Of a stretch of DNA of 64,000 nucleotides, positions 1,032 to 53,313 are shown piece by piece. Source of the stretch: Muricea muricata (lineage: Eukaryota; Cnidaria; Anthozoa; Malacalcyonacea; Plexauridae); NCBI GenBank assembly GCA_963855995.1, contig OY979730.1:682501-746500 (forward strand), in the 5' to 3' direction. The first letter of the stretch is position 1. Every line of letters begins with the position of its first letter. The notes beneath the pieces were generated by a model. That model ran no database searches, was not told the DNA's origin, and was given only the letters and a program-made list of their open reading frames with translations. The translations under genes were made by a program, and so were the position numbers.

Positions 1032-4000
1032 TCAGACTACACCAATTCTGAGCTCTGGAATATGTGTTCCTGAGTCAACCATAGGCTTGGGATTTCTGTC
1101 TTGGGCAGATACCGACATGGTATCTATATCAGGATTATCTGAACCTGTTGATGACTCAGCTCGACTATCTTGGTTCGAGTGGCTGCTATCATTTGATGGT
1201 GTCCTACTCCGCATCTGATATTGTTCAGTACGACCCCTGTTAGGAGGGTTATCATCTCTGTTCCTTTGGTAAGAATTCCCTATTTTATTTAATATCCAGG
1301 GATCCTCATTTTCTTCTACAGGTGATGAGTTCTGATTTGGAGTTGATGATCCAGAATAATCACTCCCCGGTTGGCTTATCCCCAGGTTTTCGACACCGGG
1401 CATTTCACCCGGAGTATTTTCCACCTGTGTGGTATTATCCGTAACATCTTCTTGTATAGCTGTGGAGACGTCTCCATTAGCCAAGCCAGGGTAAGGAGGA
1501 GGAGGGTACTCCGGTATTTCATCCCACTCATCACTGGCTATCGTAGGTGTGAACGATTGACGTTGCAGTTGAGGGGTACCTGAACCAGAGCCTGTTAGAG
1601 AACCATGTTGATTCAATAATGCTCGTCTATGTAAGGAAAGGTGTGGTGTGGTCTCAGGGGTTCCATGGGGAGTCTCCTGGGGTGTTGGAGGGTACAAGTC
1701 AGGGCAAGCCATCACTGAAACAGAAGAGTTATTATTTACAGTGTTAAGGTCAAAGTCATTTCAGTACCTGATCAAGTCAAGCTAAAAGACCTCCTCAGCT
1801 TGCATGTAAATCAACCCAATTTGATCAATCACATATCTGTAAATTAACCACATGATTGTTGAATGGTTATATAGGTAACTCTTTTCAAGATCACAAGAGA
1901 TGAAATGGTTAAATTTCAAGTAAATGTTAAGGAGGTTTATCACTTCACTCATGTGCGATCAATGCCAACTGTTTGAATGGCTCAATAAATTCCCATTTAT
2001 CCTTTCTACCCAATTTTCTATATTTGGTTGCACAACACTGCCAAGTCGCTTGTAAACAGGATTAAAACAAGACCGTTTCAATGCCTTTGCAGATATTTAA
2101 TGAATACTCAACCCCAGACAATGTTATCATGATATACTGATGTCAAACAATTGTAGAGCTGAAAGTTATATTTTACAGCTGAAATTACCAGTGTGATGAC
2201 AAGTGGACATACACAAAGACATAGGATTATGAAAATCTAGCATAATTGAACAGTCCTTCCCAGGGATCTCGTCCCTCCCCAACGGAACTATCAAGATCAT
2301 TCTGTTTGGGGTGTTTCTGAACAGCCTTTTTGATTTACCAACAATATGAATTCTGTTGTTAAACTACCTGACAATTTCTAATCAATTTCCTGTCAAGTTT
2401 TGTTTTTTTCTCATATAAAATAAGTACCATCAAGGTTTTAGAAGTGGGAGTTGTTTCCCCTCCTACCTACTCATGTTCCAGACCCCCTCCCCCTCCCAGT
2501 GGTTATACCTGCATCATATGAGGGCGGTGCATTATCTGCAACCACATCAGGCCTGTTATCATCCTCCTCCTGACAACTGGCACTGGGTAATGTTCTGCGC
2601 CTCAAGTCTCTCTGGTTACTTCGTCTTGCTGAGATTATTGTAAGACAACTGAACAATGTAAACAGTGCAATGCATATAGCTCCTACTACCACACCAACAT
2701 ATTGTATGTCGCCAACATTTTCTGATGTTGGATCACCTAGAAGCAATTATTATTTCAAAATAATCACTTTGTAAGAAAGGTGGTCAGTGCTATCCACTAT
2801 AGTGATTTTTTCAACAATTCAACTACAAAAATACAGCAATTAATGCACTTACCATTTGGCGTTGGTAATGGTGATGGTTTCCTAACTGTAACACTTTCAA
2901 TTGTTAGTTCAGGATCATGGAAATGTGGACATGAGGTGATATTAAATGACACCTACAAAACCATCACACAATACTCATAGAAAATAGTACTCATGGATGA
3001 TTCCAATTTTTAGAAGTAAAATTCACATGAAATATATGTTTAATCAATATCTTTTTACACTGATAGAAATCAATCTCATTAGCATATAGTTAATTGTGTC
3101 CACTCTCGTGCAAAGCACTTGTATTAGAGCCCTTGTAGTAGCTGTTATTTACATTTAAATGCACATATTTAAAGCAAAGTTACAGGGTTCCAAAGTAGAG
3201 TGTATCTGAGTGTACGATGCCACTATTGTCAGTAGCGCTTTATTAAAGCCATAGACTAATTAGCCATGAATATTCTGAATGTGTCAAAATGACTGATGTG
3301 ATACAGTATGTACACTGATCTACATCTACTATGACTAATTTGAATACAGCCCACAACAGAAAAGGTAGATCCAAACTATATCACATTGTCAATAATACAT
3401 GTTAGCTGCACTATAATTTACCTTTATTGGTTGATTTGTGCTCAGAGGTGCACATTGTTCCATAGATTGACTATAACCAATGTCAAATGGAGCGCCATTT
3501 ATAAATAAGGTCAATACTGGATCATTTAGCCGATTAACAATAAAATAGATGCAAAACATTTCTTGCCCATTGCCCGTCTGTAAGTCATCATAACTTGCGA
3601 AAATTGAGGTATATGTCAGTATATTGTTGGTGTGCCTGGATATTAATCTGTAGGAAACAGTGCCTAAAATGAAAGAAAAACAAAAATAAGCAATGAGCTG
3701 CAATTCACCCTGGATTATGTTCATTTCTCTATTACTTCACTGGGTGCCACACGTGTTAATAAGATAATAAACTGTTTAATAAAAACCATATTGTAGCTGA
3801 AAAGCTGAGTTACACAATCTTATACACACGTGAGCTATCAAAATTACTCTTTACAATTTAATGTAAATACAGTCACATAATAATAGCAATATATAATTAT
3901 ATAAAACTCTTATTGTTAATCAGTGTTGTCCAGTTAAATAGTGATCAAGTGTGAAATATGTCGTTCTGATTGGTTGACAGTTTCACTAACCCTAGTTAAC

Positions 4001-6966
4001 TTTTATTATTACTTTTTTATGTGACCAGCCCTTGACAGTAAAAGCACTTAATATTTTGAAGGGCAGGTGACACACACAACCAAGATTCCCCCCCCCCCCT
4101 CCCTCCCACACAAGCACACAGAGACCAAATCATGCTGGACCCATCCCTAAGTGAACACTCCTTCATTTCAACTCCTATTTAATTATATCTGGAAATGACC
4201 AAAAAAATATTATTACCTGGATTTCCATTATCGAAATTTGCCCAGTAACATTCCTGACCACGAGCAATTTTCCAACGATCAGGGTGGTTTAGTGCTACAA
4301 CAATAAATGCATTCATGTTTTTTTTTAATTCTTGGAGCATTTATTCACAGAGGGAGGAAACCCAGTCCAGAATACCAAGAGCACAGGACATACTGGCCTA
4401 ATTAGCTTTTTCAGAGGTGAAAGTCATGAAATATTTATTTATTTATTGTGCTTCGCCTCCAAACATCATACGGTAATTCAATTAAAGAAGCTGGGATACC
4501 ACAACAGCTTAACACCAATCACAGTGGGCCCTTCACAAAATATCATTATAAATATAGAAACAGAAATAATTAATAAATTTTCGCCGACGGCTGGGTGTTA
4601 TCGTTGAGTAGGGGCGAAGAAAAAGTTGAAGTTTTCATTTAACAATAACCACCCTGAGGCGAACAATTGTTTTAGTATGATTTCATTGGTGATTATTTAG
4701 GAAAACAACAACAAATATGCTCAATGTTTCATGATAACAAAGCCATAAAACCAGTAAAAATATAAATAAATTACCATTTAGTGTGAAGATGTCTTAAGTT
4801 AAAGATGAAACGTTACTTAGTAAAAATTTATTTATATTTTTACTGGTTTTCTGGGTTTGCTAAAAGTTATATGTTGGGACATCATATTTATAGCAAGAAT
4901 TCTTTTCCCACCTGGCAAATCTCTAGCCACAATACTGTCCCATGATAGTAATACATGAGACCTTTTCATTAACACAAACAACTAACAAATATAGGGCAGT
5001 GTTGTTGTCATGTTGGTTTAAAAACTGCCAAGGTAAAATGAGCAAATATACATAAAAAGCTAAATAAAACAGTGTTGTATCAAGTGTTGCATGCCATTGT
5101 CAGCAGTGTTCTGTATGCAGTAATACTAAATATAGTAGCATTAAATCCAAGATGAATATATCCGTATGACATCTTCACCATTGCACATGTTGATTTCTTG
5201 GAATTTTTTGGAAAACTAAAACTTGTGATGTTGTGTGCAGTATTAAAATTTTGTTTCACTACAATACAAAGTTTTTTTTATGAATAAAATGTGTCAATTA
5301 ATAAATATGAATTCACTGCAAACTGCTCCAAATTATTGTAACTCTGAGTCTATTTTTCTCCTGACTTATATGCAATGACCAGCATTCACTATATGACAAG
5401 TCGTGCATGATTTTAACATATGTAATTGAGTGCATGTGCACACACTTTAAATTTTTCCTGCAGCTGATAAACAGAAACAATGACGTTAGCAGTCATTTTC
5501 ATATGCCAGAATAAAACCTGCATGCAATTTGTTATATAGTGTAAACCAGTCTTAACTCATAACTAATAACATCATTCATGATAAGTTTTATGCAACTAAG
5601 AACTACCATATAGACTCAACCACTATGTAATAAGTAAAAAAAAAGAAAAACCGATGAATTATCTATTTTATTGTAGAAAACCCACATATTTTTTAGCCTA
5701 GGAGTCCAGACCTCCCCCTGTCCTCCCTCATAAACAATTTCATCATAACAATTTGTGGGAATAAATTCTTTTCGCATCATAAGTTCATGTTCTAAAAGAG
5801 ACAAAGTTCTTTTTCATGCATCATTGGTTTTTACCTTAGGCATTAATATAATACAATATGCTTTGCCACAATAAAGTTGAAGTGGAAAGCCGTAGCGGGC
5901 TTATTTGCATGACAACATTCAGTACACCTCCTTGACAATAGAGTCATCGAAGCTCCCATGGCAGGACATGCTGAGTAATAGTGTGAATTAGCAATGAAAC
6001 GTAGTTGTGAAAATGAATTTTAAATTGCTTGCATTCGTTCAAAAGTGAAAACTTGCATAGGATTATTAACAATCTCTGCTGAACATCACACAGGATTGTA
6101 CAAATGAATTGACTTGGGCTCAAGTTTGACTTGTGCTCAGTAGTTACACAGAGTTTACAGTAGATGACCTTGTCATTCAAGCAGTGTCACACAAAACATG
6201 ATTATATTCACATGCGCACAAATTTAGAAAAAGTGTATTAACAGCAAGTCAATACAATGCCTAAAAACACAGTTTAAAATCTCGTCTTAAAACATTGGAG
6301 GCTGCTCCCACACTTGTTTGTTGATAGCAAAACACGCTTTTTAATATGTCATGTTGACATTTTTTGTGGGTGATACGCCGACATTCAAAACAAAAACACA
6401 ACATACGACCTTTCCAACCAAATATTTTAAAATCCATCCCTCCGCTGATTGACCTTTCTAAAAATTTAATTGCGACTGCGGCATACATTTCCTACGCCAT
6501 TATAAACACGTTAAATATACACATCGACAATGCGAACATATTTGGCGGTGTTAAAATTTTATAGGCGTTTGAATCGTAGGAGAAAGCCATTAAGCATATC
6601 TTGTGGTCTCATTCTGCTACTCGATATAATGGAGAAAAAAACACAAGACGCTTGACAGGTGCACGGCAATAAAGATTTATTTATTTGCCTCGACGTGACG
6701 AGAAATCGCCTGGGAAGACGGCTTGTAAGTAAATGTACACCGTATAAAGAATCATGTATTGTATGCCGAACGTAGCTGTAAAAACGTAAGAATTGGGTCA
6801 AAACACAGCGAGATTTACAAATCTGTGAATTCCGAAAAAAAGTTTGCGAATGAGTGATAAAGAAAATGTCACATTTATTGAGTTAGAGCTTACCTAGGCC
6901 TTGAGCCCGAGATATAATGAAAATTAGAACCAGGAATTTATGACACAGCACTAAGCCGTTTGACAT
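1032..6966 (-). CDS. Single-pass membrane protein with PPxY tail (paralog A)
   Basis: Eight exons on the minus strand: 6966-6894, 5791-5686, 4961-4912, 4294-4217, 3663-3422, 2952-2853, 2736-2509 and 1714-1032. All use GT-AG junctions with matching phases and give 519 residues. Exon 1 encodes a signal peptide (MSNGLVLCHKFLVLIFIISR). The ectodomain (about 22-225) has five or so Cys and matches no domain I recognise. A transmembrane helix lies at about 229-253, followed by basic residues. The cytoplasmic tail has PPSYDAVM at the exon 7/8 junction, PPPPYPGL at about 363-370, and a long Ser/Thr/Pro-rich end. PPxY motifs are known ligands of WW domains, so ubiquitin-ligase-controlled trafficking is a reasonable inference. 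The tail matches paralogs B and C in this window. The 50-base exon 3 and the exon 2 donor (GTGGGT) are the weakest parts of the model. Function is unknown. Confidence 0.8.
4747..4850. repeat. Small foldback repeat in paralog A intron 3
   Basis: Two 26-base arms at 4747-4772 and 4825-4850 are inverted copies, starting AAAACCAGTAAAAATATAAA. About 52 bases separate them. It lies inside an intron and could be a small MITE or part of a SINE. No target duplication was identified. Confidence 0.6.
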
Positions 6967-7434
6967 GACCAGCGTCCTTTCCTGAGAAAACACGATCAAA
7001 TTCTTGTTTACTCAAGTCTTGTGCCTTGCCCCTTCGATTTTATAAGATGCTCCTTTAAATCCCTTGAATAGCCAAAGACCCAAGCTAAATAGCACTTTGT
7101 ATCGGCTCGATCAGTGGGCGAAATACGACCTTATAAACATATTAGATATACTGACGTCAAAATTATTTCCATTTACAAAATAACTCAGTACAAAATCTTC
7201 ACTTCAGGAAGAAACGAATCCGCGATGCTCATATAGTTCTGGCAGCGGAAGACCAACTTCCAACGTTTTTGCGTCATGTCGTGCGAATGAAATGGACCCA
7301 GAAATTCATCGAAATTGAATGATTTTCGGTGCAAAAATAGCTTGGTCGGTCATACAGTATTTGATTTCAAAGAAGGTCTAACTAAATTGATGGGTACCCT
7401 CTTTAAGCACTTCCAGCTCAGCAATCCAAAAAAT

Positions 7435-14064: not shown

Positions 14065-14768
14065 TACACACTGTAAGAACGTCTTTCTTTGACCGTTACT
14101 TTCTGTGACCGTTACTTCTGTCTCAGAAACATTTTCTCCATGTAGGATTGGAAATGATGCATAGGAAAATTTTCTACTTTATAATAAAGTCATCAGTTCT
14201 AGCTGAAAGCTCATAAACGAAGGAAAGTTAGACCCGTTCTGCGAAAAATGCTCTTGCGTGAAAACTTGTCTTAATACAAGTTTAACTGGTTTTACAGAGG
14301 ATAAACTAGTTTTGATTGTTTTGACAAGATGACTCATCTTCCTCCCACAGCTTGCAAGTAAGCAGGTTTACATAACAATATCTTTAAATCGTTTGCCTAA
14401 GTGACACGGAGTTGACACCGCATAATAAATGCTTCAGAATGTGCACCTGCAATAATTTTTCTGCAAAGGTCTTTACATCTTTTTTATATCTCGCTTGGCT
14501 CACGAGATATTTTGACCCCAGCATGAGAGCTGTCGGCCATCTTGGATGAATTATTGAGTTCATTCCGTGACGTAATAAAGTACAAGGAACAAACAACAGT
14601 TCGCATGTCTCGAAATATCTCAAGCAGAGGCAAACAAGATATGGAGATCTGTGACAGGCTTTGTCAGTTATTTCAAAAGCTCTTTCAAATGAGCAAAAAA
14701 TACTTTTTGTTGCCCTTTAAACATTTCGCAAAGAAGAAATCAGCAGCACCTATTTTTTTAATCTAGAA

Positions 14769-15194: not shown

Positions 15195-18100
15195 ATGCTC
15201 TTGACGTTTCTGAGCACAATACTTCTCGTCGGTTCAACCAACGGCTATTCTGGTGACTGTAAGATACCTAACAATACTATATACAAAAATAAATTAAGAT
15301 AGTATATCATACCACATCATGATCATTCCATACCATACTATGATCACACCATACCATACCATAACGTACCACACCACACCATAACATACCATACCATACC
15401 ATACCATACCATACCATACCATACCATACCATACCATACCATACCATACCATACCATACCATACCATACCATACCATACCATACCATACCATACCATACC
15501 ATACCATACCATACCATACCATACCATACCATACCATACCATACCATACCATACCATACCATACCATACCATACCATACCATACCATACCATACCATACC
15601 ATACCATACCATACCATACCATACCATACCATACCATACCATACCATACCATACCATACCATAATCATACCATACCATATCATATTATTCTGAAATTCTA
15701 CATGCATTAACAAATATTTTGTAACCAAACGTGCCCTGTAACTTTGACCAATCTTCGTTTAAGCTCCTGGAAACTGTACTGATATAATTCAAGTGGATGG
15801 AAGCAAACAATGTAACTTCTGGTGGCTTGGAAATTGTCGGAAGCACAAATGTAATCAAAAACGACAAATGGAAGATCAAGTGTTATGTTTTAAAGCCAAG
15901 TCTGATCGGGTTCAGATCGGTTGCAATATGAGATTACATTATCATTGTCCTTTTTCGGATATGAATCTGCGTGTCTACGATGGCTGCAATGGAACCAGCC
16001 TCGATTCAGAAAGAATTCAGCTGAGTGTGAAAGAGCGGTCGTGCAAATGGACGTCAAAGAAAACTAATTGCCTAAAAGTGGTATTGCCTAGAAGTAGGGA
16101 CTGGAAGGAATGCCTCTATTGTCAACTTGCCGGCGACAAAGGTATAAGGCAAAAGAATAATTTGTTAAGTTTACAAAGATCGTATGCCTAAAATGCATGA
16201 AATTGACTTCATGATTGGACCCTCCCCAGTCCACCCACTTGTTTAGGGCTGGCTGCGCCCCTGACTCAGTTAACTTGCTCCAATCCCGATATGATCGTTA
16301 TTGTCATCGTTACTTGGTTGCAATAACAAGGTAGATCTTGCCAATTTCAAACTCCTTTATACTGGAGACACGCGAGGAATTTAGAAAACACATGAATGCA
16401 CAATGACAAGACTGCGAGCATGATACGTGGAAGAACAAAAACAAATTTAAGAGAAAATTCTTTCTGCTTTGTCTTCGTAAACCTCTGAGGAAAAGCTATC
16501 CTTTGTTATATTGCTTATGCTTATGTCGCTAGTGAGGACAGACTATAATTTTGCCGGAACAATATTCCCTAGTGTTCCCAGGGCTCAAAAAATGACGAGA
16601 CAGTATACTATATTAACGCATTCACACTGAATTTTACAGGTGGTTGGGATTCCCGTCGGTATTCCCGTCGGCATGCACCATCTACGAGGCGAAAGACACG
16701 TCATCGTTCTCCTGTAAATGCTCGTACTGTACCTCGTGCACCAGCACCACCACGTACTACCAGACCGCCACGTAAGTGCATTTAAAATTTGAAATCCCTT
16801 GGTGAACATGCCAAAGTATCGATAAAATGCCAATTTTTGGAACAAGCATCACAGAATGGACTGCGCGTTTAGATTCTTTCACGTTGGGGTTGGTTCACAA
16901 GCGTACCATTTCACGTGCACGCTTAAAAATTCTCTTACACTGCTGGTTCAGAATCTGCTTGTGAAAAGTTTCCTTCACACTGCTTTGTCCGTGTTTGTTG
17001 GAATAAGTTTGGAACAAGCTGTTTACAGCTTGTAACGAGCTTGATGGCATCATCAGACTTTTACAAGGTTGCTATAACAAGTGTGGTATAATGCTGATAT
17101 AGCAAAAATGTTACAAGGTTGAAGAAATCAGGTTGTTATAATTAGTATTGCTATATCATGATGTTCGAACTATCTTGCGACATGTGTGATAATGCCATCA
17201 AGCTTGTTGCAAGCTTGCTCCAAACCAACGATACAACTCGAACGCTAACTCATTACAACAGTTCAGTTGTGGGTAAAGCCAAGTCAGTTTTTCTGAGTTT
17301 TGGGACGAAATACTTCACGCCAAAGATTGGACCATTTATCAAATTGAAGCTATTAAAAAGTTACATTTAATATAAAAAAATCAAAACTTAATTTAGACAA
17401 AAAAGAAATGCCTTAAAAATACGAAAACAACTGCAATTTGGAAAAATACGGCAAACAAGATGTTTGCTTAGGGAATTCTTTTCACATAAGAGTTGCTTCA
17501 CGTATGGGTTCTGAGGGATTGTTTCACGTAGGGGTTGGTGTTTTGGTGAACTGCAACTAAATACATTACGCATTCATATCTAACCGTAGTCGAGAAATAA
17601 TTGTGCGTTTACATCATTCTTTCAGCATGCAAGGAGCAGACATTTCGCAGAGAGCGTGGCAATTTCAGCTCGCCCAATTATCCCTCTTCCTATCCGAAGA
17701 ACCTGGACTGTATTTACAAAATCGAACGCCCAGAAAATGCAAGAATTCAGCTGACGTTCCAGTTAGTATAATGATATGCAGAACGTGTTGTATAGACTGC
17801 AGATAGCAAGGATCGATATCACAGTAAAACCCCGTCATAAAAGAACCAGTGGGTTAAGAACCGTCACTAGCCTGAAATTTGGACAATGCAAGAGCCACTT
17901 CAGGCTAGCAAATGAAACTGGTTCTTGAAAAACCCTCTTAAACCTTTAGCCGAATTAATAAGCTGACACTAGGAACAAAAAAAAAACACTGTAACCTTGC
18001 TAGCATCAACTATTTTTTGAATGGATATAAGAATCAGTTAAGAAGCATGTTGGCCTGATTACTTTCCAAGTTCAGCTACATAAGAACCATCTGTGTACGC

Positions 18101-20516
18101 GAAATTTGACAAAAAAATTCTCGTCAACTTTTACGAGGCCGCATGAATTAAGTACGTAAACAAGCAATTCCGTTGTCAAGTGTACTTTGTTGCATGTACA
18201 CACGAGCAAATTTCCATGTTGAAAAGCTGGTACGATTATCTTTTAAACCCGACTCCTTTTGAAGGAAAAATAGTCAGTATTCTCTATATTGGAAATATTC
18301 TCGCTTACACACGAGCAAATAAAACTTGTCAAGGAAAACTTGCTCGTCTGTACGGAGCTTCACTGTCCGAGACTGTCGACTGAACGAAATTTACTCGTGA
18401 ACCACGCTCGACAGACCTGAAAAGGAGATCAAACTGCTCGGAACGACCAAACTAAAAGATTTTAAATCGCCTAAATTTTTGTACCATGCCAGAATTAGAA
18501 GAAACTGAAATAGAAGTTTAAGAAATTTGTTTTGTTTCGTCTTAGAGCAGTGGATCTGCCATCGCGGATACGTGGTGATTGCAAGGGAGATATCATCAAA
18601 GTTTACGACGGAACCGCCTCGTGGGCACCTTTAAAAAGAGATGTCTGTGGCAGAGAGGCTGCAAACATCATATCGTCAGGAAATAGACTGAAAATAAGGT
18701 TTCGCTCAGGTCAACGGGGCGGAGGATATGGAGGATTCAAAGCGATATACGGCCCTTATCCAGACAGCACACGTAAGACTTTGAAACTATCATTAACTAG
18801 GGTCCTTTGATTGGCAAGAACATTTGCTCATTTGAAAAAGCCTTTTCAAATAACTAACGAAGCCTGTTAAAAATTACTCGTAGTAAATTAAGCGACAAAT
18901 AATAGTTTGCCAAAATGCTTTTACTCAATGCCGAATATCAAATAGCAAATAGACACGAGTTGCTGGTCTGACTAACAGGAGAATAAAAATTAATTTTGCT
19001 GTTTTTAATCAGTTATATCTTTGTTTTCTTTTATGCAACTCGTTGAAACTTTGCAATTGTGTTTGGCGAAGTAAATCTAAAGATATAGCTATTTAAGAAC
19101 TAAATGAATGGATTTCGATTGACAAATAGTGTCAGACTCCCATCAGTGGATTACTTTTGGATTTCGGAAATATCCTTATAAACATTTTCCATCAGACATG
19201 CAATGCCATTAAAATCTCCTGTCATCATTATATTACAGCAACCAAAGATGATGCGCAAAAGGTGACTGGCGTGGTGATTGGAACAGCATGTGGTCTTGTG
19301 TTTATTGCTGTCACCGTTCTGGCTCTCTGTAATTCTCGTAGATTGAGCTTCCTGCATTTTCGAAGAAGAGACGACGACGTCCAGTCCAGCTACGTGCAGG
19401 ACGCGGTACAGGATCGAGCTCCACCCGCTTACGATGAAGGTATGTGAGAGAAGGACAGAACCAGAAGAGCCACTGAATTGAAGCCAGTTTGATTCACTTT
19501 CACTGAGTTGGATTGGGTCGTATATCTAATTGAAGCTATCGAAATGTTGTCTGAATACTTAGTCTAAAACGTTGGGCGGGAGTCTGCAGCGCTTTACAAA
19601 ATTGCGGTTGTTTTCTTATTTTTAGGTATTTCTTTTTTCGCTTCAGTAAAGTGTTAAACTCTCGGGACAGCGAATTTTTCGTTGTTCTCTGCCGTGTCAC
19701 ATTGATATGAATCTACTTTTTTCACATCTCTGAGGGTGGTTCTGAGATAAGACTATTACGACTTTTTGCCTTAAGTCTTAATAGATTTACTTCGATATAC
19801 GACCCAAATTTAAGTGTTAATTAGATTTTAGTTAGTTCAACTCATAAAACTTGCTTAGTTTTATCCTATGGACCGGACTAAAGTTGTATGAACTCGTGTT
19901 GTGATTTCGAGTATCAGCAACTGTTAACTTTGTACTGGTTCAGATTTTGTCGAGTTCCTTGCCTGTTCTGACTCGTCATCGTCTTCCGTGGATGATTTAT
20001 TTCATTCTGAATCGAATTTGTTTCGTTTTAGTGATGAACTCGCCCGAGAAATATCCGATTGCTAACGAAAAGCCACCACCTCCTTATCCTGGGATTATTT
20101 TGCGCGTAGACCCTGAGCACGAAGTGCTGATATCCGACCAGTCACGAGACATCGAGGAGGTTGAGCGTGCGTCTGACATCGACTCGAATGACGTATCCGA
20201 AAGTCATGATGACGTCATCAGGGAAGCTGATGTAGATGTCAGGGAAGGTGGCGTCAGCAAGAATGACATCACAGAAAGCGACGTCAGAAGTGGAAGTGAT
20301 GTCGAAGATGATACACGCGCGGATACACGCGACGAAGGCACACGAATCAACGACAATGGCGCGACAGGAGCTGAAAGTATCCTCGTAAAACAAAGCCATA
20401 TTGTATCAGACGACGACGCCGCCACAGCAAACGAAGATCTGGATGATGCTGCTAGTGTAATGACAATTAAATCCTCGGTACATGAATATCCGAATGCAAT
20501 CTCCACCGATGTTTAA
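15195..20516 (+). CDS. CUB-domain single-pass membrane protein with PPxY tail (paralog B)
   Basis: Seven exons: 15195-15258, 15794-16141, 16640-16771, 17626-17761, 18546-18772, 19239-19439 and 20032-20516. They give 530 residues. Exon 1 is a signal peptide (MLLTFLSTILLVGSTNG). Exon 2 encodes a module of about 116 residues with 11 Cys that I do not recognise. Exon 3 is a basic Arg/Pro/Thr linker. Exons 4-5 (about 182-302) form a CUB domain: Cys near the start, NFSSPNYPSSYPKNLDC, IIKVYDG, a Cys after the YDG strand, and LKIRFRSG. A helix at about 311-333 spans the membrane. The tail has PPAYDEVM across the exon 6/7 junction, PPPPYPGI at about 384-391, and a long Asp/Ser/Val-rich acidic end. CUB domains bind protein or carbohydrate ligands outside the cell; PPxY motifs recruit WW-domain proteins. 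The architecture recalls the LRP10/LRP12 style of receptor without LDLa repeats. The ligand is unknown. Confidence 0.87.
15371..15670. repeat. ATACC pentanucleotide satellite in paralog B intron 1
   Basis: About 270-300 bases of nearly pure (ATACC)n, degenerating at both edges (CACACCATA, ATCATACC). The minus strand reads as three overlapping open frames encoding Met-Val-Trp-Tyr-Gly repeats. These come from the period-5 repeat, not from a gene. Confidence 0.98.
16960..17240. repeat. Degenerate ACAAGCTTGT-type repeat
   Basis: Repeated short motifs such as GGAACAAGCTG, TTACAGCTTGTAACGAGCTTG, ACAAGGTTG and AAGCTTGTTGCAAGCTTG occur in both orientations. It lies in paralog B intron 3. A related stretch lies at 61430-61690. 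Confidence 0.55.
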
Positions 20517-23801: not shown

Positions 23802-26800
23802 TCATATTACCTCATCATCTTTTGAGCCCAGAGCCTCTTCGTGGCTAGTCAGCGGTATTCGAGAGAGGTTTGGTGTAATAGTCCCGGCGGGTTCATCATC
23901 ATCTTCAATTTTAACTGTATCCGCACCCCGACTCTTGTACGGACAGTAGCCGAAGTAGCGGACGATCGCGACCCCGGGAATACAGGCAAGCGGCAAAAAT
24001 ATCATAAGCACGATACAAAAATATGCACCTCCCGTGTACTGGGCGGGCACTTTATCACCCTAAAAAGGAGCAATGGTACATTAACCATCAGTATCCACTT
24101 GTACCCTTAAACACGCACATATTCGCGAACATCCCTAGTCATCACGTATACTCATAAACATCCTTAGTCATCACCTGTACACAAACATTCCTGCTCATCA
24201 CCTCTTAATACAAAGATCCCTAGTCGCCACCTGTACTCACCAACATCCCTAGTCACCACCTGTATTCACCAATATCTCTAGTCGCCACCTGCACTCGCTC
24301 TGCTATCTACCTCTACTCCCATTAACTCCCAAAGATCTCATACGATCCTACCTTCAACACGTCCCATCGCTGATATCCAATTCCTTTGATGATCATATCA
24401 ATCACATTTGCGAAAAACACGACGATAATAAACAATGGTGCAAGGAATTTCCAGCAAATTTTCCAGTACCAGCCTGGCTTTTCATTCAACATGTATTCCA
24501 CGTCAAGCTCGAACCTAAGAGCGGAAAAATCAAGAAAGACAACTACAGCAACAATATTAATCGTTTTTATGTAATCACAGTCGTTTGTTCAACCACACGG
24601 TCGTTCACAAGTCTTTTATTCAAATGAAAAACTTGTTTTGGGCTGACGAAAACAGGCTTGAACAAAGTTTTTCTGCCAATATTGTTCAGTGTTGTCAACA
24701 ATATTGTTCGGCATTATAGAGCCCGAATTAGCCTGCAATCAGGTGTGATAATGTGGGCAGCAAAACATTGTAGGTCTGCACAAACGTACTTGTCCAGTCC
24801 ATAGACCCATGCGACCGCGATCAATTCGAAGAACGCGATGGTGAGCAGCGGTATAGTGCCAGAATAATCATTGAACAATTCCAACCAGTATACACCGGAC
24901 TCCGTACAGAACGTCAGGCCAATGATGTAAGAAACCAAGCATACCACAGCTGAAATTCATTTTACGAACAAAACCTTAGATGTTTTGTTGCACATATAAA
25001 GGGGGGGGGGGGGGTGTGTAGAAACCCATTTTCGAGTTTTTAATCACTTATATCTTTTGTTTTCATCAAATAACCTTTTTGGGACTCAGTGTGCACGGTG
25101 TCGTTTCTGAGCGATTTCATTTTGAATTATTTCAAAATGGTCCAGACTTGCTGACATATGTGCACATAGTCCTAGGAATCATGTTCAGTAAATCAAATTA
25201 CAAGTCTATAAGAAATTTGCAACTAAAATAGATTACATGTCATGACAAGATCTAGTAGTTTACATGGAAAAACGGATTTCCTTGTTACCTGGATAGAAAC
25301 TGCCTCAAAGAAGAGGACAGAAATTGGATTTTTATTTGTCATCTAACATGGACACGCAGAGTTGGAAAGAGTTTGGTTCTTAATTTTACCTGTGATGTAC
25401 TGTTTCTTCACATTGAAGATCTTCGAATCAAAAAGTGGGGTCACAACACCCTCCAAGGTTCCGAACATACTGCCAAAACCGAGCGTTATCAACATCATGA
25501 AAAACAAGATAGTCCACACATGTGGTGCCGGCATCTGGATGATAGCCTCAGTGAAAGCAATGAATGTCAATCCAGCACCCGATGCGACCTAGAAGACAAC
25601 GTTCATATTATCACACGGCCAAAATTTATGACTTGTAATTACACCGGTCTGTGGCAAATGTTTAATACTCTTACTGTTCGTTTTGTACCTATTTTGTTCA
25701 ACTCCAGCCACTGTAGTCCATATAGTTAACAGTCAATAGTCTTCAAAAAGGTATCCACCGAATAGGATAGAAATTCAGACATAAAAACGACGTCTAAGAT
25801 GAAAAAAGTAGTGTAATGCACAACTTCATATTGCCAACTGATGTCAGTGGCGCCACGAAGAATTACAAATTGCTGCTTCAATATTGACATTTTATGCATT
25901 AAATAACGTACGTATTTCGTTTAAATCGATATGGATGTAACTTTGAAGATCTTTTCCCCCGATAAGCTTAATAAACCATGTATTAATTGTGGTAGAGTCG
26001 AAAAATATTGTTATAAATAGACACAAGTGTTACACGTTCACTTTGTCGTTCATGTTTCTTTGTCGATTTCAGAATTTGTAAAATTGACCAATCACAGCGA
26101 AGCACAAAAGTTCTAAACATTTGCCACAGACCAGATTACAGGTTGTTGAAAACAGGATGGAACAAAATTAATGCTGTTGGGGCAACATTGCTCCTGGTTG
26201 TCAACAATATTGAATCAATACTTTTATTTCGCTCTAATCTGACGGAGTCTGGCTCTAGCCTTTATTTATTCGCCAGGTGTTGAGCAGAACACGAGAAAAA
26301 TAAAGCCTTATATTCGGGCGAATTTTGCTCCTTTTGGGATTAGAACATTTACCTTTGCTAATTCGTCTTCGACATCGCAATCTTTATGACCCTTACACTT
26401 CTGCGTGGCCTAAAGCACAAATAATTACATGGACGGTTGAGTTGGATCGTATTCTACTTTTGAATTTTTCGTTGGCCGACAAAAAATTAAGGTTTTGAAA
26501 TATTGTGGCTTAACCAATGGCCTGCAGTAAATGGTTTCAACGGTTGTCGAGTCCCTGCTATATGTTACTTCTTTTGTATTGTAACGTGTCGTATTCACTG
26601 TGCCTAAAGCTGTTCTCCAGTTCGATCGTATCGTACGATCCTAGTGTAGCTTTTTAGTGAGTAATAGTGCAAGATAGACAACTTAACACACTAGAAAGAG
26701 GTGCAGTCAAGGTGGAAAAAAGACGTTTATTGCATTGTATTGTATTTATGTCATCTACCAGTGGCGGATCTAGCGTAAGTCAAAATAAATTATCACAGCT

Positions 26801-29800
26801 CATTCTAGGGTATATTTACAATTTAAAATACCTTCAAAGCAACTTCATTGGTTAGATTTTATTCTTTTGAAATTCATAACCTATGACATTGTTATAAAGT
26901 TATTTTGAATTTAAAATTGAGCTGCTATAATTTATTTTGACTTACCCTGGATCCGCCACTGTCATCTACGTAACTTACTGCATAAAATGGCGAAGTCTTA
27001 AGAAATAAATAAAATTAGAGGCGTTTTCGTTTACCTTGAAGCCAAGCACAGCAAACACAACTAGGGAAGCAAGCTGCGATGTAAAACAGTTCACCAACGA
27101 AACAACGACGGCGTCGCGACGGCAGTTGTTGTGGACAGGATTGTAACTTGCCATGGATACTAAACCTCCAAAAGCGAGACTCAGAGAGAAAAAGATTTGA
27201 GTTGCAGCTTCTAGCCAAACGCGAGGATCTGCTAAATATTTGAACTAGAAAATAGCAACGAGTAATAGACAATTTGCATGTTAGACTAACTTTCAATCTA
27301 GGCAAGGGGAACAAAATTTTACTATAGTTAAAAAAAGCGTCCTAAAATTAGTAGAATTGCCAAGTTTGGTGGCGAAATGTTGTAAAGCATGGAAAATATG
27401 GCCTCGCAAAGTTTGCAAATTTGTATACATTTGTATTACGCGAGGAAAAAGTTACCACTTTAGATACAATTTTAGCTGAAAAGTGGTAACTTTTTCCTCG
27501 CGTAATACAAATGTATACAAATTTGACTTCTCAAGCTCATCAATTATGCAATTCAAAGTACTAGTACCTTGAAAAATTTCAAACTACTAGTACGTTGAAA
27601 AGTTTCAAACTACTAGTAGTTTGAAAACGAATACTTAATCAGCCCCGCTGTCCCCTGAGACATTTCAAATCCGCCAACTGCTTTTAAGACACTTTTCCTC
27701 TAGTTTCAAAACACTAATTAAATATGTATTTCTTTTGAATTTCCTTCATGAATTATCAATGAGTTTTAGAATGAACATTTCAACATTACATTTATATAGC
27801 GCATTTTTCATATGGATATGTTCAAGTGCGCTTCTTACAGCAATAAATAAATTTGAGATAATAAATATTAGATAAAATTATATTACAATAATGTTAAGAT
27901 TATATAAATCTATTACACCGATAACTACAAATAAAAGTGGACTGATGCACAGTCATTAATTAAAAGCATCTAAGAATAGAAATGTCTTTAGTAACTTTTT
28001 AAATATAGCTGTTGAGGATGCAGTCCTGATAGCTTTGGGAAGAGCGTTCCATAAAGTTGGGGCAGCGAGAGAGAATGATCAATCACCCAAGGTCTTAAGA
28101 GTCTTAAGTCTGGGGCGTTCGAGTAGACACGGATCGGAGTAAGATCTATGGTTTTAACTGGTGGTTTTTTTAATTGAGAGAAGCTCTTTAATGTACGTTG
28201 GAGCTTGATTGTTTAAAGCCTTGTATAAACTGGCTTACCAGGCAGATGGAGTAAGACTTACTTCTGGCTTAAACATGCGTTTGATGCCAACACCAGCTCC
28301 TTCCAATGTCAAGCCACGGATCAAAAAGATAAACAGCACAACATAAGGAAACAACGACGTAAAGTACACCACCTGGCAAAATTAGAAAGACATGCATGGA
28401 TGGATTTGCTAAACAAGATTTCGAATAATGGTAGATAGATTCAGAGACATATAGGACTCTCCTGGAGGGATTGCTGCCTCTTTTGGCACCACCACAACCC
28501 TGAGAAAATTGCTAATCTACTTCTGAAGGTCTGCCCCCCTGGGTTTTCTTGGTCCACTCCTTACAAGAAGAAATCCTGGCTACACCGCTGGATAGACTAC
28601 ACTGGGTTTTCGAATCCCGTTTATACCTTAGCCATTTAGGGTCTATATAATCTAAAAGTTTAATTTACCTTTTATACATATGTATAATAATTTGTAAAAT
28701 GTAATTATAATTGACCCTAATAAAAGTCATAATATTAATAACGTTCTTTAACCCTCACCTTTCCTGCAGCTGCAAGACCTTTCATCATGACAGCAAACAC
28801 AATGACCCACGCAAAAAGTAAAACAAGACAGAGATGCCACAAAAGGGGGCTACTGGCCGTCATTTCGTCACTGATCTGCAGGTTTTGGTGATACCAGTAG
28901 TAGACGGTAGAACCAAGTCGCTCACAGTCACTGATGTTGTTTGGGTAAGTGATGTTATATGGATAACTGACTGTAGTTCCATTAGTGCTGTTGATTGTTG
29001 CACCAGCGAAGCTCACAGTTATATTGAGACCTGAATTATACAAATTGTTTTATTACTAACAACAGATGTTAAACTGGGCTTCGGGTGTTCCTTTACAGAT
29101 GTTTTCATCCACAAACCATGTCAATTTACTGACGACTTCCAATCAATTTTTGCTAGGCTTAACATTGGATGTCATCTGGCAAGGTGTACCAGAGTTTGAT
29201 TGTTATTAGAACAATTAAGATGTGTTTATTTTTAAAATTTCCTTGATTTCCTGAATTTACAATTATAGTTTTTCAAAGTCAGTCCAAGGTGAATGCTTCC
29301 AGACTTCATCTGTTCACCAGGAGGTGTGATGTTTGGCATCACTGCTACTCTAACTGTACCAAACTTTCCAGCAAACTCCGACCCTTAACTTAGCCCAAAC
29401 TGACATTGAAAAATGGTCAATATTTCATACACAACATGTAATGCTTCAGTTGCCACCAGACAACAACCTAGTTTTGTGATGAATATAAAAAAGCTACAAG
29501 ATCATGGAAAACACTGTCTCAGGGTAATGTACTTTATGACTACGAGTAATTTCCATTACTTTTAGATTCTCGCACTTGCCTTACCTGGGGTTATGTGAGG
29601 ATATGAATCACAAGATTCAAATGGTAACTTTTCTTGCATCGAAATAAACATATAGTAGAAACTCCATCCAATGATCATGTTGTAATACACAGAAACAAGG
29701 AAGGAGACTACCATGCATCCAATACCAATTCCACCAAGATATGGTGAGATTTCATTCCAACAGGCTACAGAACCACGGCGAAGTCGTTGACCAATGCCGA

Positions 29801-32800
29801 GTTCAATAAAGAAAATAGGGATGCCAGCAATTGCAAGACATAAGAAATATGGTATGAGGAAGGCACCTGGAAAGAATATTGGGAAATATTTTAGACCCCC
29901 AAAAGCTGTTTGGGTACAATGCTGCATCTCTAATAATGTAATTCTCCTAGCGGGGGGGGGGGGGGGGTGGTGCACATCCAAACAAGTATATAATTACATA
30001 TGATATACTAGCTTGTTTTAAGTCTGTCGGTAAGCACATTGCATCAAAGCTGTTGGATTCTTCAAGTCAAATCAAGCCTGTGAAATCAGACTTCATAGAT
30101 TCAACTTGATACTTGCAGACTTGTGAAAAGTTTTCAACAATCAACCTGCATCAAATCTGTTGTTTAAGCTATGTGAAGGCAACCTGATATCTCACGATGT
30201 ACTGCTGATGTGCTTGGTCACAACGCTCAGTATTAAGGCTCAAACAAACATACATGAGTTGAGCGCATCTTGCACCATCAGCTCTCATCAACCTTGATGA
30301 CTGGTGACGAGAGTTGTATGAGAATTAATTTGTAATCGTAATATTACTTACAAAGTAGTTATAACAAGATGAAGGTACTTAAGAAATTCTTGAATTTCAG
30401 TCAAGAATTATAACTTTGTAACTATATGTACTAGGAGCTCCTGTTGCAAGGAAAATGTTGCTGTTATTTAAGTTTCTTTCGCACATTTACAAAACCTGAA
30501 TGTCATGAATGCAATTTTTTAAAAAAGTATACCAGTAATGATGATCATGAGACAATTTAAACTTTAATTTTGACTTTCACAATTCACACCCTTGCCTTAA
30601 ATCAACTCTTGTTTTATCAATTCTTTATGATTATCCAACCTAATTAACAACGCCTTTGGCGGTTAAAAATACTCAAACAGTTACAGACAAAGAAGTTTAA
30701 GAAACAGCATTTTGTCAAAAAAATTTCAAATGATAAGCATTCACATAACATACAATTGTTAAGGGTGACTGCTGTTAACAATTATAATGCCACGTACATC
30801 ATTTCTGTGTATAGAAATAAGTGTCTTAGGTCCCCATGCCAACATATAAGTCAAGGAATGAATGTATTCTTTGTGCAAATTCTTCAATATAAAGACACCT
30901 GTCATTCCTCAAACACCACCTGCAGAGCTTTTAATGGAAAAGCCAAATTTAGTATCGTATCACATATCAGATCACAATGCTAGCCACTAGTCACATTTAC
31001 TGTGTACAAGAATTATCCACATCAAGAATTTAGCAATACAGTATATTAGGGCATTGTAGAGATAAAAACCTACAATCCATATCAATTATTTGGCAACAGT
31101 TCAAGCTGATATAGTGTTTTTGAATTCTTTACAAATCTCTCTACCTATATTTGAACAGTTTTGGCTTAAAAGGTTGTGGTTTTGCAAAAGCTTCTGATAT
31201 TCTATTAATGTGCTAGGTGGCCTTTGATGTGTATATAGCAACACATGCAATAAGTCTAGCCCATAATATTTTGATGATTGGCAACAAGGGAATGTAGGTG
31301 GGCTTGTTGGAGGAGCTACAAAGACATGTGATGATGTTAAAGCATGCTGGAATGTACTGATCAATATAACAGGTTTTGTCACGCATGGATCGTTGCCAAT
31401 TATCAACGAGACAGATAGTCTTACATACATTAAAAAAGCTTGTGTGTTATGATGTTACTTATGTCAGTGTTCACGTTGTCATTTTTTCATGTTCACTAAA
31501 GTTATTTCCAAACTTGTAATGAGCAGTGTCTTTGCTTTCGTGTATGAGTACATAAGGGATATCATGTGATATAACATGCGGTCGATTGTAGTGAAAACCA
31601 CGAGTCGCAATATTATCAAAAGCCAACATAATGCTTTCAGCTCTGAAAATAGCATCCTAAGTGTGAAACAGAGGGCTGGAAGAGGCATACTAGGAAACAT
31701 TTCAAAATCATGTGATTATTGCATCATTTAACATGCTTGAGTGATATAGAGTTATAGACACATGTCATATATAGTGAATAACCTAGCAGGTGATGTGATA
31801 TACCACGCAGCTATATTGTTGTTCAGTTCTTTAACCAGTCGTCACTGCTTTCAGCAATGTAACCCAATTAAAAGTCATAAATTAGAAGAATTTTTAACTT
31901 AACCTGTTTTGTGGCACACAGCAGATTCAGTCTTGTGTTCGACATATTTTACAACATTTATGCACCCATCATTGGCAATGAATTAACCCACATTTAACAA
32001 AGTACACATTTCTGCCAAAACAAATGCAACAATAAACAGCAAATATTCCCAGAAATGCATTTATTAAAACTGTTGCAAAGCAAAAGTGAAACTTAATATG
32101 ACCACTGATGCATAACCCTGTACGACGCCTCCAATCCCCTGAAATACAACACCTGTAAAAGCCATGTGCATCTAAAAATCACAGACAGTTTAAAAATAAA
32201 ATAACTGCAACAACAGGAAGGCCAAATTTAGCAACATTTAGAGCACGCATAAAAACACAGGAAGAATGATTGAAGCCTTCTTTGTAAGTCAAGGAAATAA
32301 ACACCTATTATGGTGGAAAAAAACGCCTATTATGGTGCAATTACAAAGTCTACTTCGGAAGATGAATCAACTTTTTCAGACAAAACCTTTGTGAGTGAAT
32401 GTTCTTGATGTCTATGCGGTAGCCCACATCTTAACAACAAAGATGTTGAGCAGTTGTTATACTGCTTAGGAGAGAGACATCTGTTTCTTTTGAATTTCAA
32501 TCAACCTTTGTTTACATCAGAATTCCTGTTCGCCAAACGTGACGAAATAATCAAAGTACAAAGTATTTTTTCGGAAACACTCCCTCTAATTTGTTTCCGT
32601 ATCGTGATTACATTGCTAAAACCCGAATATTCAGGTAGACAGGGCTATTTTATAATAATCTTATCACTTGCCCCTTTTATCCGGCACAGCACATTATATA
32701 TTTGATCAAAACAACAGTGTCTGGTATTGGATATAAGGAGACACTGCGCTCCGAAACCGCTATAAAATATTTATTGTGCAGCACACAACATTGGCGTATT

Positions 32801-33746
32801 TCAAAGTGGAAAACAAGTTATTTCACTTTCGAGCTTTTGCTGAAATAGAAGACATTTGCTATAAAACATAAGTATGACAAAAATTCGCAGCATGTTCAAA
32901 GCCTATAATTAATTGTTCTAGGAACAAGCTGGCAATGAATGGCACGTTGAAAACGAAAGCTTCTGGCAAATTCTACGCCAAAATTTTCTATTTTACTTTT
33001 AATCACAATATTGACATCCGGCAATTTCCTGAGTACCACGGGTAACCATTGACGTACCGAAGAATTTTCGTTCAAGAAATTTTTCCTTTTCAGCTACTTG
33101 CATGCAAATTTATAATCTTTACAACAACGTAAATGTACACTCATGAATATTTTATTAACAATATCTTACTACGCCGCTACACACCCTCAAGGTGCCGTAG
33201 TCGGACAGACTTCAGTAAATAAAACTTTAACAAAGTTATATAAGTCTTTTCACTCACTTTTGAACAGTTTACAAAACGAAAAACTCGAAAGAACTCGGGA
33301 ACAGTTATGCTTCTCTTCTCTTCGCACGTGGCCGAAAGCCATTGAGCCACTGTTTTACCGCTTTCACAAAATAAATCGAGCCCTGAAACCCAACCCTTCT
33401 GACAATTCGTTCACTTAAGAATACCTTTCGTGATTTCGGGGCTTTAAATGACCGTTACGATACAAAAATCAGCTGTGGTCATTAACAAACTAAATGTATA
33501 ACTAACTCCTACCAACAACACAAAGCTAAGCGAAGCTCGCGTATGTAAACACACAATGAAAGTATATATACCTCCACCGTTCTTCTGAGCGAGATACGGG
33601 AAACGCCAGACATTTCCCAAACCAACAGCAAACCCAATTGTAGCCAAGACGAACTCTATATGGCGTCCCCAGTTGCCTCGTTCATCACGAGTATCGTTGC
33701 CGGCCGTCTCCACGTCGTACTTGTCTCTGTCTTCTTCTATATCCAT
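23802..33746 (-). CDS. SLC6A19-like: SLC6-family Na+-coupled amino-acid transporter (B0AT-like)
   Basis: Ten exons: 33746-33572, 29866-29585, 29030-28759, 28372-28262, 27244-27035, 26409-26353, 25588-25390, 24949-24790, 24514-24352 and 24059-23802. All phases agree, giving 628 residues, the usual SLC6 length. TM1 carries the Na+/substrate segment [15 protein letters not shown] (about 38-52). Next comes GQRLRRGS, typical of the SLC6A15-A20 branch, then [12 protein letters not shown] Cys pair and several N-glycosylation sequons lie in the second extracellular loop. TM6 has [10 protein letters not shown] and TM8 has [18 protein letters not shown] and the short following loop match B0AT-type transporters best, though the exact subtype needs a tree. 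Family knowledge: 12 membrane helices and plasma-membrane uptake of neutral amino acids with Na+. Intron 1 is 3.7 kb, and several introns hold MITEs and minisatellites. The start is supported by an N-terminal acidic tail just before TM1. Confidence 0.95.
24120..24320. repeat. Minisatellite in SLC6 intron 9
   Basis: Imperfect tandem units of roughly 30-35 bases containing CATCCCTAGTC(A/G)(T/C)CACCTGTACTCAC. At least five copies are visible. Confidence 0.75.
26759..26961. mobile_element. hAT-like MITE in SLC6 intron 6
   Basis: Terminal inverted repeats of about 34 bases begin CAGTGGCGGATC(T/C)AG. Perfect 8-base target duplications TCATCTAC flank it at 26751-26758 and 26962-26969. It is 203 bases long and encodes nothing. 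It lies between SLC6 exons 5 and 6. Confidence 0.9.
27416..27525. mobile_element. Perfect 45-bp foldback in SLC6 intron 4
   Basis: Arms at 27416-27460 and 27481-27525 are exact inverted copies, starting CAAATTTGTATACATTTGTA, with a 20-base loop. The identity of the arms implies recent insertion or conversion. A short three-copy CAAACTACTAGTA repeat follows at about 27555-27625. Confidence 0.85.
27785..28230. mobile_element. Interspersed repeat fragment, possibly LINE 3' end
   Basis: It contains TTTATATAGCGCATTTTTC near the left and GAGCGTTCCATAAAGTTGGGG farther on. These resemble phrases common in the 3' regions of invertebrate retroelements. No open frame survives. The identification rests on remembered pattern only. 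Confidence 0.4.
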
Positions 33747-34030
33747 TACTTGATCCGTTCTTTTGAAATGATGACTTCTTTTTTTAGTTTTAAAAAAATG
33801 TAGTCAAAGAAAATCAACGGTTTTCTTAAACACTCAACAGTTATATGTGAACACGAAGCTTTATAAGCCTAAACACGCGTACAATTCAACAGTCCGAGCG
33901 AATATAAACAATGCGTCGTAGTATTCGGGGCCACGTATGTATACAATTTGCGCGGGAATTTCGGGCGCGCGGGAAAAAGCACGCACCCAGAATCTAAACA
34001 AAGATTCTCGTTGCTTCACCACTTGACCAC
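33747..34030 (-). promoter_or_regulatory. Presumed promoter region of the SLC6 gene
   Basis: Directly upstream of the start codon the sequence becomes richer in CG, with CGCGGGAATTTCGGGCGCGC at about 33951-33970. No TATA box is obvious. The call rests on position and base composition. Confidence 0.3.
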
Positions 34031-51376: not shown

Positions 51377-53313
51377 CAGCCGGGTCTGAGGACAAACTTT
51401 TGGCACAAATGGAAATATTTATTGTCGTGGTAGCGGTAATAGCCGTGGTTGCGGCTCTGATACTTCTCGTCTTGCTTCAACTGAGAATAAAAAAGCAAAG
51501 CGCAGCTGAAAATGCGGCCGCCAACTCACGCAGCACTCGTACACAAGTAAGCGTCGCTGAAGAGATTGCGTTGGACTACCCCGAGGATCAAATTCTGCAG
51601 ACCGGCCCGCCGCCATACAGAAAAGGTAAGCGAATTTGAAATCGTCAAGTTGAGAAGTTCGAGTTAGGGTAAAAAAAAACGTTCGTTGCTGGCACATCAA
51701 CACAAAGTTATTTATGTTTTGCCCGTTCGTAAACGTATTCGTTACTAGTATTGTCTTTTGATATCATGTTCAACCAATCACGAGAGCATTCTAGACATTT
51801 TGGCTGTCCTATTCGGTTGAAGTGCTTGTATTCTTGATATTGTATTGTTTGTTGACAAGGAGTATAATATTGTACGTGCTGAGAAGCCGATCCGGGTATA
51901 TACACTCAGTATATAGATGTGAAAAATAAAATACCATAATGAAATGTTTACAATAGACATTGTAAAAAGATAAAAAACGTACAAGGCGAAGAGTGACGCG
52001 TAATCAGTAACGAAAGCTCCTATATATATATAAAAAAATCAACCAATCCCACGGGCTTTTCGAGATCTCGAGAAAACCACAACGGTTTTTTTGCGACACT
52101 CCTTCCCGAGTAGAAAGATTGGAGTAACTAAAGATGAGTAAAGCAAAAAGTCACATCACTCTGTACAAAGGCTGCGGATAATATGGCCGAAGTGGAAGAT
52201 TAATTATATTTCAAAAATTGTGTTAGATATAATGTCTAGTTGTCATTTTGCCAAAGAGTTTCCAAGGCAATGTCGACTGGCGTTGTTTGTTTACATGGTT
52301 GGTATCCAACCCACAAAGTAAGAAAGACTTACATCGACCTAGTTGTGTAAAGACCAGAATCAGAGAATAACAAAAGTTAAAGATGAAAAATAAGCCTTAG
52401 AATTATGTCAAAGAGGTTGAACTATGTTAAAGACGGTGTAATGTCCGTTCTGAGCATCAATTAGGGCATATTTTTAAGAGACTGGCTTGAGAGGCAACCC
52501 TCGGTTAATATACAATATATGCGAGTAAAAAGATAAAAGAATATTTTGTGCACCAAATGTACCACATTTCACGGGCAACGGGGGGGGGGTGTTGTTGCTC
52601 TACCAGTGACATCACCACTCGGGCAATAACCCCCCTGTCAAAATTTTAATTGGTGCATAAAACATACTTTTATTGGTCAGAGTGTATTAACAGGGGGGTG
52701 ATGCTCTCAAACTAAAAGCTCTGGCATCAAGTCTGGAAGAATAGATCCTAAACATATAAATTTTAGTCGGGGAGTAATTCGTTTCATAGTGGTAAACTGA
52801 CCAAGTTTTTAATTTCTAGTAATGAAATCGCTCCAACTCTATCCACTGGCCGCATCAAGCAATATCGGAGATGGTTCGGTGAAAATCCAAATACCAAGCA
52901 GTCCTATCAGCAACGAGCGCTCGAAAAGAACCTGGAACCAACTTCTAAATGCCGTCCTCGGATCTGATGACCAAGGACCGAATATCCTATCGGGGAAATA
53001 TACCTTAGAGGATAATACTCCGATGTACAGTTCGCCGGTAATCGACGACGTGCTACCGACGTACGACGAAGTTCGCTTGGAAACTAGTTGTGAAGCATCA
53101 AAAATAGAGTCTGGCAAAAAAACTTTATCTCGACGAGAAAGCGCCGACATTGTAAAATCTGGACAATACGACATTCTGGGATTTAACTTCGGTATAGAAA
53201 AGACAAATTTATGTAAAAATGCGTGTGTTTTTACCATAACAAACGCACTTCAGACAGTTATTACGGATGATAAAATGCACCCATTGGAAAGACAACGAGT
53301 CGCTACACTATGA
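51377..53313 (+). CDS. Membrane and tail exons of PPxY protein (paralog C), 5' end unresolved
   Basis: Two certain exons, 51377-51625 and 52820-53313, joined in phase 1. The first encodes a short acidic stalk, a strongly hydrophobic helix (IFIVVVAVIAVVAALILLVL), a basic stop-transfer segment and, at its end, PPPYRK. The second starts Val-Met-Lys and continues LQLYPLAA, giving PPPYRKVM across the junction. This is the same layout and phase as paralogs A (PPSYDAVM) and B (PPAYDEVM). The remaining 163-residue tail has LPTYDEV, a basic patch (KKTLSRRES) and no further PPPPYPG motif. The 5' exons with signal peptide and ectodomain are not identified, apart from a candidate at 41003-41203. AATAAA follows at 53400-53405. 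WW-domain binding is inferred from the motif; function is unknown. Confidence 0.78.

Follow-up and report, generated by a model that had tools for sequence, protein, structure and literature searches.

The subject of this study is a 64-kb stretch of the genome of the anthozoan Muricea muricata (contig OY979730.1, here C15, positions 682501-746500, referred to as the window in the following), in which three genes, designated A, B and C, share a short coding module that is interrupted by an intron at one and the same place. In each gene, an exon encoding a membrane helix ends with PPxYxx and the G of a valine codon, and the last exon opens with V-M-x5-Y-P. The junctions are located at 2509/1714 on the minus strand (A), 19439/20032 on the plus strand (B) and 51625/52820 on the plus strand (C), and the strings across them read APPSYDA/VMACPDLYP, APPAYDE/VMNSPEKYP and GPPPYRK/VMKSLQLYP, respectively, with the slash marking the intron. 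The split codon is always that of valine and is interrupted in phase 1 (G/TG in A and B, G/TA in C) by introns bounded by GT and AG. All exon junctions were read from the DNA by means of reading frames and GT-AG sites, and the membrane helices of A, B, C and a further relative, D, were judged from hydrophobicity by eye. A preliminary description of this locus had placed split PPxYxx/VM sites in three genes, each behind a single helix in the same exon and with a Tyr-Pro pair soon after the junction; all of this was confirmed, and the spacing up to the Tyr-Pro pair proved to be identical in all three genes. The helix exons measure 228, 201 and 249 nt in A, B and C and are of class 1-1 by reading frame, which for C is read from the frame alone as its preceding exon was not located.

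The shared split module in A, B and C is far above chance. A donor-side pattern, CCNCCNNNNTAYNNNNNNGGTA (PPxYxx followed by GGTA), and an acceptor-side pattern, YAGTNATGN15TAYCC, each had three matches in the 64 kb, compared to shuffle means of 0.01 and 0.03, and in neither case did any of 100 shuffles reach three; all six matches belong to A, B and C. The probability that both B and C match A at the V, M, Y and P places after the junction is 2e-12 by composition. Across the genome searched (453 Mb on 74 contigs), the totals of the separate halves were at chance level, namely 60+52 for the donor side (control 75+73) and 53+52 for the acceptor side (control 54+34). A single half is consequently uninformative; what is unusual is the occurrence of three complete pairs in about 51 kb. 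The places listed comprise 100 for the donor side (contigs C1 to part of C14) and 90 for the acceptor side (C1 to C14); a further 12 donor places, on C15 or later contigs and possibly in part on C14, and five acceptor places on C16 or later lie outside this set. Within it, no donor is followed by an acceptor on the same strand at less than 41.6 kb, and none of the eight single half-sites that looked best by eye and were read carried the module. DNA encoding an uninterrupted PPxYxxVM likewise occurred at chance level (24+20 matches versus 25+36 in the reversed control), and in the eight of 44 such places that were read, no helix was found beside the motif in the frames examined. Within 100 kb on either side of the window there was no fourth split module, and tblastn gave no match between family parts besides that of A with B. 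At C15:800372 on the minus strand, about 53.9 kb past the right end of the window, a PPxY stands before a phase-1 donor-like site (PPPAYDVNQPPAYAE followed by G), and no VM-x5-YP acceptor was found in the flank examined. A scan of viral contigs with the A/B/C profile gave 51 stretches that fitted a pattern, none of which was confirmed.

Gene A can be modelled completely from the signal-peptide Met to the stop codon (467 aa, minus strand). Its candidate first exon (6894..6966) provides a start codon, the signal peptide MSNGLVLCHKFLVLIFIISRAQG and a phase-1 donor, and is the strongest of four candidates on the minus strand between 3665 and 15000, the others being at 14606, 4340 and 4316. The first exons of A and B are the least certain parts of both models, because they were picked as exons with a hydrophobic start and a phase-1 donor. 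The ectodomain continues with exon 2 (4217..4294, class 1-1), which was chosen by coding score, splice sites and a continuous frame and is less certain than the later exons, exon 3 (3422..3663, phase 1 to 0) and the juxtamembrane exon 4 (2853..2952, phase 0 to 1). The class 1-1 transmembrane (TM) exon (2509..2736) ends in APPSYDA/G, and the last exon (1032..1714) carries VMACPDLYP, a second PY motif, PPPPYPGL, and the stop codon. The modelled ectodomain is small and has four Cys by hand count. Exon 3 had no Pfam match, the joined ectodomain had no PDB sequence match at E up to 10, and a fold predicted for exon 3 as a single exon with no alignment (mean predicted local distance difference test score, pLDDT, 57.7; best Foldseek E 1.1) was not used as evidence.

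Gene B is transcribed away from A, on the plus strand, and its model is likewise complete from signal-peptide Met to stop, with 538 or 540 aa depending on whether the donor of the candidate first exon (15195..15258, signal peptide MLLTFLSTILLVGSTNG) follows 15252 or 15258. Exon 2 (15764..16141, class 1-1) encodes a Cys-rich domain and exon 3 (16640..16771, class 1-1) a basic/Pro-rich linker. Exons 4 and 5 (17626-17761 and 18546-18772), which are of class 1-1 as a pair, encode a clear CUB domain (Pfam CUB E 4.6e-22 when the model is joined, and 1.7e-11 and 1.2e-06 for the two exons taken singly); a CUB domain is found in the ectodomain of B only. The TM exon (19239..19439, class 1-1) ends in APPAYDE/G, and the last exon (20032..20516) comprises VMNSPEKYP, the second PY motif PPPPYPGI, an acidic tail and the stop codon. 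The Pfam matches of the Cys-rich exon were all below the cut-off and no PDB sequence matched it; it is perhaps a CUB-like beta-sandwich, and a fold predicted for the single exon with no alignment (mean pLDDT 58.7) gave weak beta-sandwich and CUB matches, which were not used as evidence. About 76 copies of the 5-bp unit ATACC (15304-15684) lie in the intron between the candidate signal-peptide exon and the Cys-rich exon.

For gene C, also on the plus strand, the TM exon (51377..51625, class 1-1 by frame) ends in GPPPYRK/G, and the last exon (52820..53313) carries VMKSLQLYP, a second motif, LPTYDEV, and the stop codon. No 5' exons were found apart from one weak first-exon candidate at 37633. Since an in-frame Met lies directly before the helix, C may have little ectodomain. 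In the surroundings, exons of an SLC6/SNF-type transporter lie between B and C (23811-33803, minus strand; Pfam SNF on three of its higher-coordinate exons), and an SH3-domain exon is found at 60081-60401 on the plus strand (Pfam E 1.1e-16). An intronless cytochrome-c-like stretch at 54258-54900 on the minus strand (Pfam Cytochrom_C E 4.1e-6) has GAQCH at the CXXCH position and shares its frame with unrelated sequence, which makes it look like a decayed retrocopy. An Rfam search gave no matches.

With regard to the relationship between the genes, common descent of A and B is supported by their sequences. In a single BLASTP comparison, A matched B with 46.6 bits and 34% identity over 83 aa (E 7e-12), and when the motif was removed from the TM exons only one of 2000 shuffles was as good. 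Matches of C were shorter or weaker, namely 27 aa to B (E 2e-5) and 29% identity over 80 aa to A (E 0.001). Behind the Tyr-Pro pair the tails are unlike, with 63 (A-B), 134 (A-C) and 665 (B-C) of 1000 shuffles scoring as well, and the "constant tail" therefore consists of the helix, the PY region and the second PY motif and not of the whole tail. Apart from short pieces that B and C share by chance, the tail introns have no sequence in common, so a recent duplication is rejected. The preliminary description had envisaged a clustered family with a constant tail, and this can be upheld for the common descent of A and B and for the TM region and start of the tail behind unlike ectodomains. The second PY motif PPPPYPG(L/I) is, as had been proposed, common to A and B, and C has LPTYDEV in its place. 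The idea has to be qualified insofar as C is the weaker member, the later tail differs and the motif also occurs outside the cluster.

The last point concerns D, a probable relative on contig C2. A genome-wide protein search with the TM-tail part of B gave five matches, consisting of the two exons of B itself, A (E 0.42), C2:59957050 (D, E 0.74) and C6:3698006 (E 1.1), the last of which lacks the motif and was read as a chance match. D carries the helix and an uninterrupted PPAYDDVINKPEDYP in one exon, and it is for this reason that the motif cannot be confined to the cluster and does not depend on being split by an intron. In one frame it reads MYRLGISILAVIALALWYCKCRGRYRRR...SDAPPAYDDVINKPEDYPIYQAQ, i.e., a helix, PPxYxxV and Tyr-Pro at the same spacing with no intron within the motif. 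Thirteen codons past the Val there is a phase-1 donor, and LPSYEEVV is encoded in a last exon of compatible phase. Local tblastn linked D to B (7e-8) and to A (4e-5), and with the motif included none of 5000 shuffles scored as well as D against either A or B, while 169 of 5000 did so against C. In a four-row alignment of A to D, the invariant columns in B numbering are L27, R43, P61, P62, Y64, V67, Y74 and P75. A genome search with D as query found D alone. Frames resembling a long interspersed nuclear element (LINE) reverse transcriptase were seen by eye just upstream of D (C2:59958526-59960757). The intron split of the motif was seen in the A-C cluster only, which may reflect a gain of the intron in the cluster, its loss in D, or convergence of the motifs.

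The tails of A, B and C each contain two (P/L)PxY motifs, namely PPSYDAV and PPPYPGL in A, PPAYDEV and PPPYPGI in B, and PPPYRKV and LPTYDEV in C. The first of them, PPxYxxV(M/I)x5YP, sits about 30-42 residues into the tail. At position +3 after the Tyr, six of six motifs have L, I or V (6e-5 by tail composition), and both motifs of D, PPAYDDV and LPSYEEV, have V there. In a PDB sequence search with the four-row profile, the top row was a chain named PVI that contains APPSYDEVMA (E 0.026; 4.3 with the three-row profile); the chain, which we take from its name to be adenovirus protein VI, shows no significant homology, and the string as such is near-identical. In the excerpts of the literature available to us, PPxYxxL is described as the extended PY motif of ENaC and a Nedd4-family site (PMC2582799), the critical motif of Commissureless (Comm) as GLPSYDEAL and that of PRRG4 as GLPSYEQAV (PMC5578492), and adenovirus protein VI reportedly recruits Nedd4 via PPxY (PMC2841620). 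Because such extended PY motifs are known from ENaC and Comm, V at +3 after PPxY does not constitute a new motif. That the tails carry extended PY motifs, a type to which NEDD4-family WW domains bind in other proteins, is supported.

We infer the label "receptor" for A to C from their architecture. From our perspective, and with moderate confidence, A to C and probably D would be single-pass proteins with varied ectodomains whose two-PY tail recruits a NEDD4-type WW ligase, so that the protein itself or a partner is down-regulated. Class 1-1 ectodomains, of which there would be little or none in D and perhaps C, would precede the TM exon and the last exon encoding the tail, and both PY motifs would engage the WW domains of a HECT ligase from the NEDD4 family. 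The recruited ligase could then cause ubiquitination, internalisation and sorting to the lysosome; the target would be the protein itself or, in the manner of Comm acting on Robo1, a partner bound through the ectodomain or helix. NEDD4-type recruitment with removal from the surface appears to be the likeliest mechanism in view of the extended-PY parallels in ENaC, Comm, PRRG4 and protein VI.

The conserved tyrosines could, on the other hand, chiefly serve as YxxPhi signals for AP-2-dependent internalisation or as phosphotyrosine docking sites for SH2 domains, with the prolines being secondary. Every PY motif of A to C also reads as YxxPhi (YDAV, YPGL, YDEV, YPGI, YRKV and YDEV), and YDEV resembles acidic SH2 ligands. 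However, of the seven YxxPhi sequences in A to C, all but YDIL of C directly follow PP or LP as part of a PY motif, and both prolines, not just the Tyr and the +3 residue, are invariant across A to D, so we regard this alternative as unlikely.

A number of observations weigh against ligase recruitment by a family of related tails. PPxY is a general WW ligand that is bound by non-ligase WW domains too, and the partners of the tails might be WW proteins that are not HECT ligases (YAP, dystrophin-like or WWOX-like), with a role in signalling or cytoskeletal anchoring and not in turnover. The literature on LATS1-YAP2 and dystroglycan counts towards this possibility, to which we likewise assign a low probability, as the tails agree with the Nedd4 ligands ENaC and Comm, as these are presented in the available excerpts, in their hydrophobic +3 residue and paired motifs. 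The cytoplasmic tail of A has only two Lys in 267 residues (B, five in 196; C, 14 in 211), so that A itself may be a poor ubiquitination substrate and would look more like an adaptor. As for C, its match is at shuffle level once the motif is removed (893 of 2000 shuffles as good against A, 1395 of 2000 against B), it was absent from the genome-wide matches to the TM-tail part of B, and tblastn with parts of A or B over 264 kb did not match it. What ties C to the family is accordingly its motif, spacing, junction and place. D without its motif likewise fares no better than shuffles against A (1605 of 5000 as good) and C (1963 of 5000), and just modestly better against B (28 of 5000). One could hence argue that C, and perhaps D, are no paralogs at all and have a convergent PY motif, which in C would lie at an intron by chance. 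Against this, C has the same phase-1 junction, the same V, M, Y and P places and a 1-1 TM exon at a distance of 50 kb, and no other same-strand donor-acceptor pair lies within 41 kb among the listed places on C1 to C14, whereas D has 13 of 17 residues in common with B over the stretch APPAYD-V-N-PE-YPI (hand count). We therefore consider convergence quite improbable, and D is likely to be a relative that is linked chiefly by these 17 residues beside the helix, ahead of the second PY motif.

A further question is how unlike ectodomains came to precede these tails. According to the excerpt at hand, exon shuffling in animals is marked by symmetric class 1-1 modules (PMC8001218). The TM exons of A, B and C (in C by frame only) are flanked by phase-1 introns, as are the Cys-rich, linker and CUB modules of B and exon 2 of A; in B, phase 1 holds for every junction that borders the signal, Cys-rich, linker, CUB or TM module, and the intron within the CUB domain is in phase 2. 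As judged from the exon structure, this set of modules fits an exchange of heads ahead of a fixed TM exon, but the unlike heads may also have diverged from one ancestral head. One could further speculate that the cluster arose by exon shuffling that placed unrelated recognition heads on one NEDD4-recruiting two-PY tail, resulting in removal receptors or adaptors that each clear a different ligand or partner and whose signal could be switched off by splicing, a scenario that we deem rather unlikely in this extended form. Reading on into the tail intron (from 2509, 19439 and 51625) changes the +3 Val to Gly and leads to a stop after 12 (A), two (B) and four (C) residues. Since retention of the intron would remove the +3 Val and end the protein within 13 codons, splicing could turn the signal off; early stops are common in AT-rich introns, and we thus confine such a switch to the scenario of exon-shuffled removal receptors. 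If the tails do recruit NEDD4-type ligases, the locus would represent a natural modular system of variable heads combined with one removal signal. The exact conservation of intron and spacing also provides a tight signature with which the family can be searched for elsewhere and head exchange at phase-1 introns can be tested.

No description of this gene family was found in the best-ranked open-licence PMC literature, and the closest parallels are individual proteins of similar design. All four genes, A, B, C and D, encode one TM helix and two PY motifs in the tail. According to the excerpts consulted, this is also the layout of Commissureless in insects and PRRG4 in vertebrates, in which one motif is an extended (L/P)PxY followed by acidic and then hydrophobic residues, and Comm is a single-TM protein whose two PY motifs are additive in function and which bridges Nedd4 to Robo1 (PMC12101832). 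As far as these sources go, the ectodomain of Comm, unlike those of A and B, has no Cys, and PRRG proteins possess a Gla domain whereas A and B have other ectodomains; no Gla domain was matched in the A and B models (Pfam, E up to 10), nor was any Comm- or PRRG-type Pfam family. ENaC proteins are ion-channel subunits and not one-pass receptors. Their C-termini are alike in the hydrophobic +3 residue after PPxY, described in the excerpt as a Nedd4-family ligand (PMC2582799). Shisa-like proteins (STMC6), CYYR1, WBP1 and VOPP1 resemble the present genes in combining a Cys-containing ectodomain, one TM helix and a PPxY tail, and are presented, in the part available, as trafficking adaptors (PMC5578492). 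The Shisa-like six-Cys head, C*C*CC*CC, differs from both A with its four Cys and B with its longer Cys-rich domain plus CUB, and there was no Pfam match to it. Weak Pfam matches to TMEM51 or TMEM52 covered the TM and/or PY regions of A, C and D, with none for B. Those to TMEM51 (E 0.0031, score 17.8 for C; E 0.06, score 13.5 for A) remain below the curated cut-off of 25.5, as do both matches of the joined exons of D (TMEM52, 1e-4, score 22.7 versus a cut-off of 26.4; TMEM51, 5e-4, score 20.3 versus 25.5). Overall, the type of motif and the single-pass design with two PY motifs are known from other systems, and what appears to be new, within the open-licence literature searched, is the set of genes with a conserved split junction.

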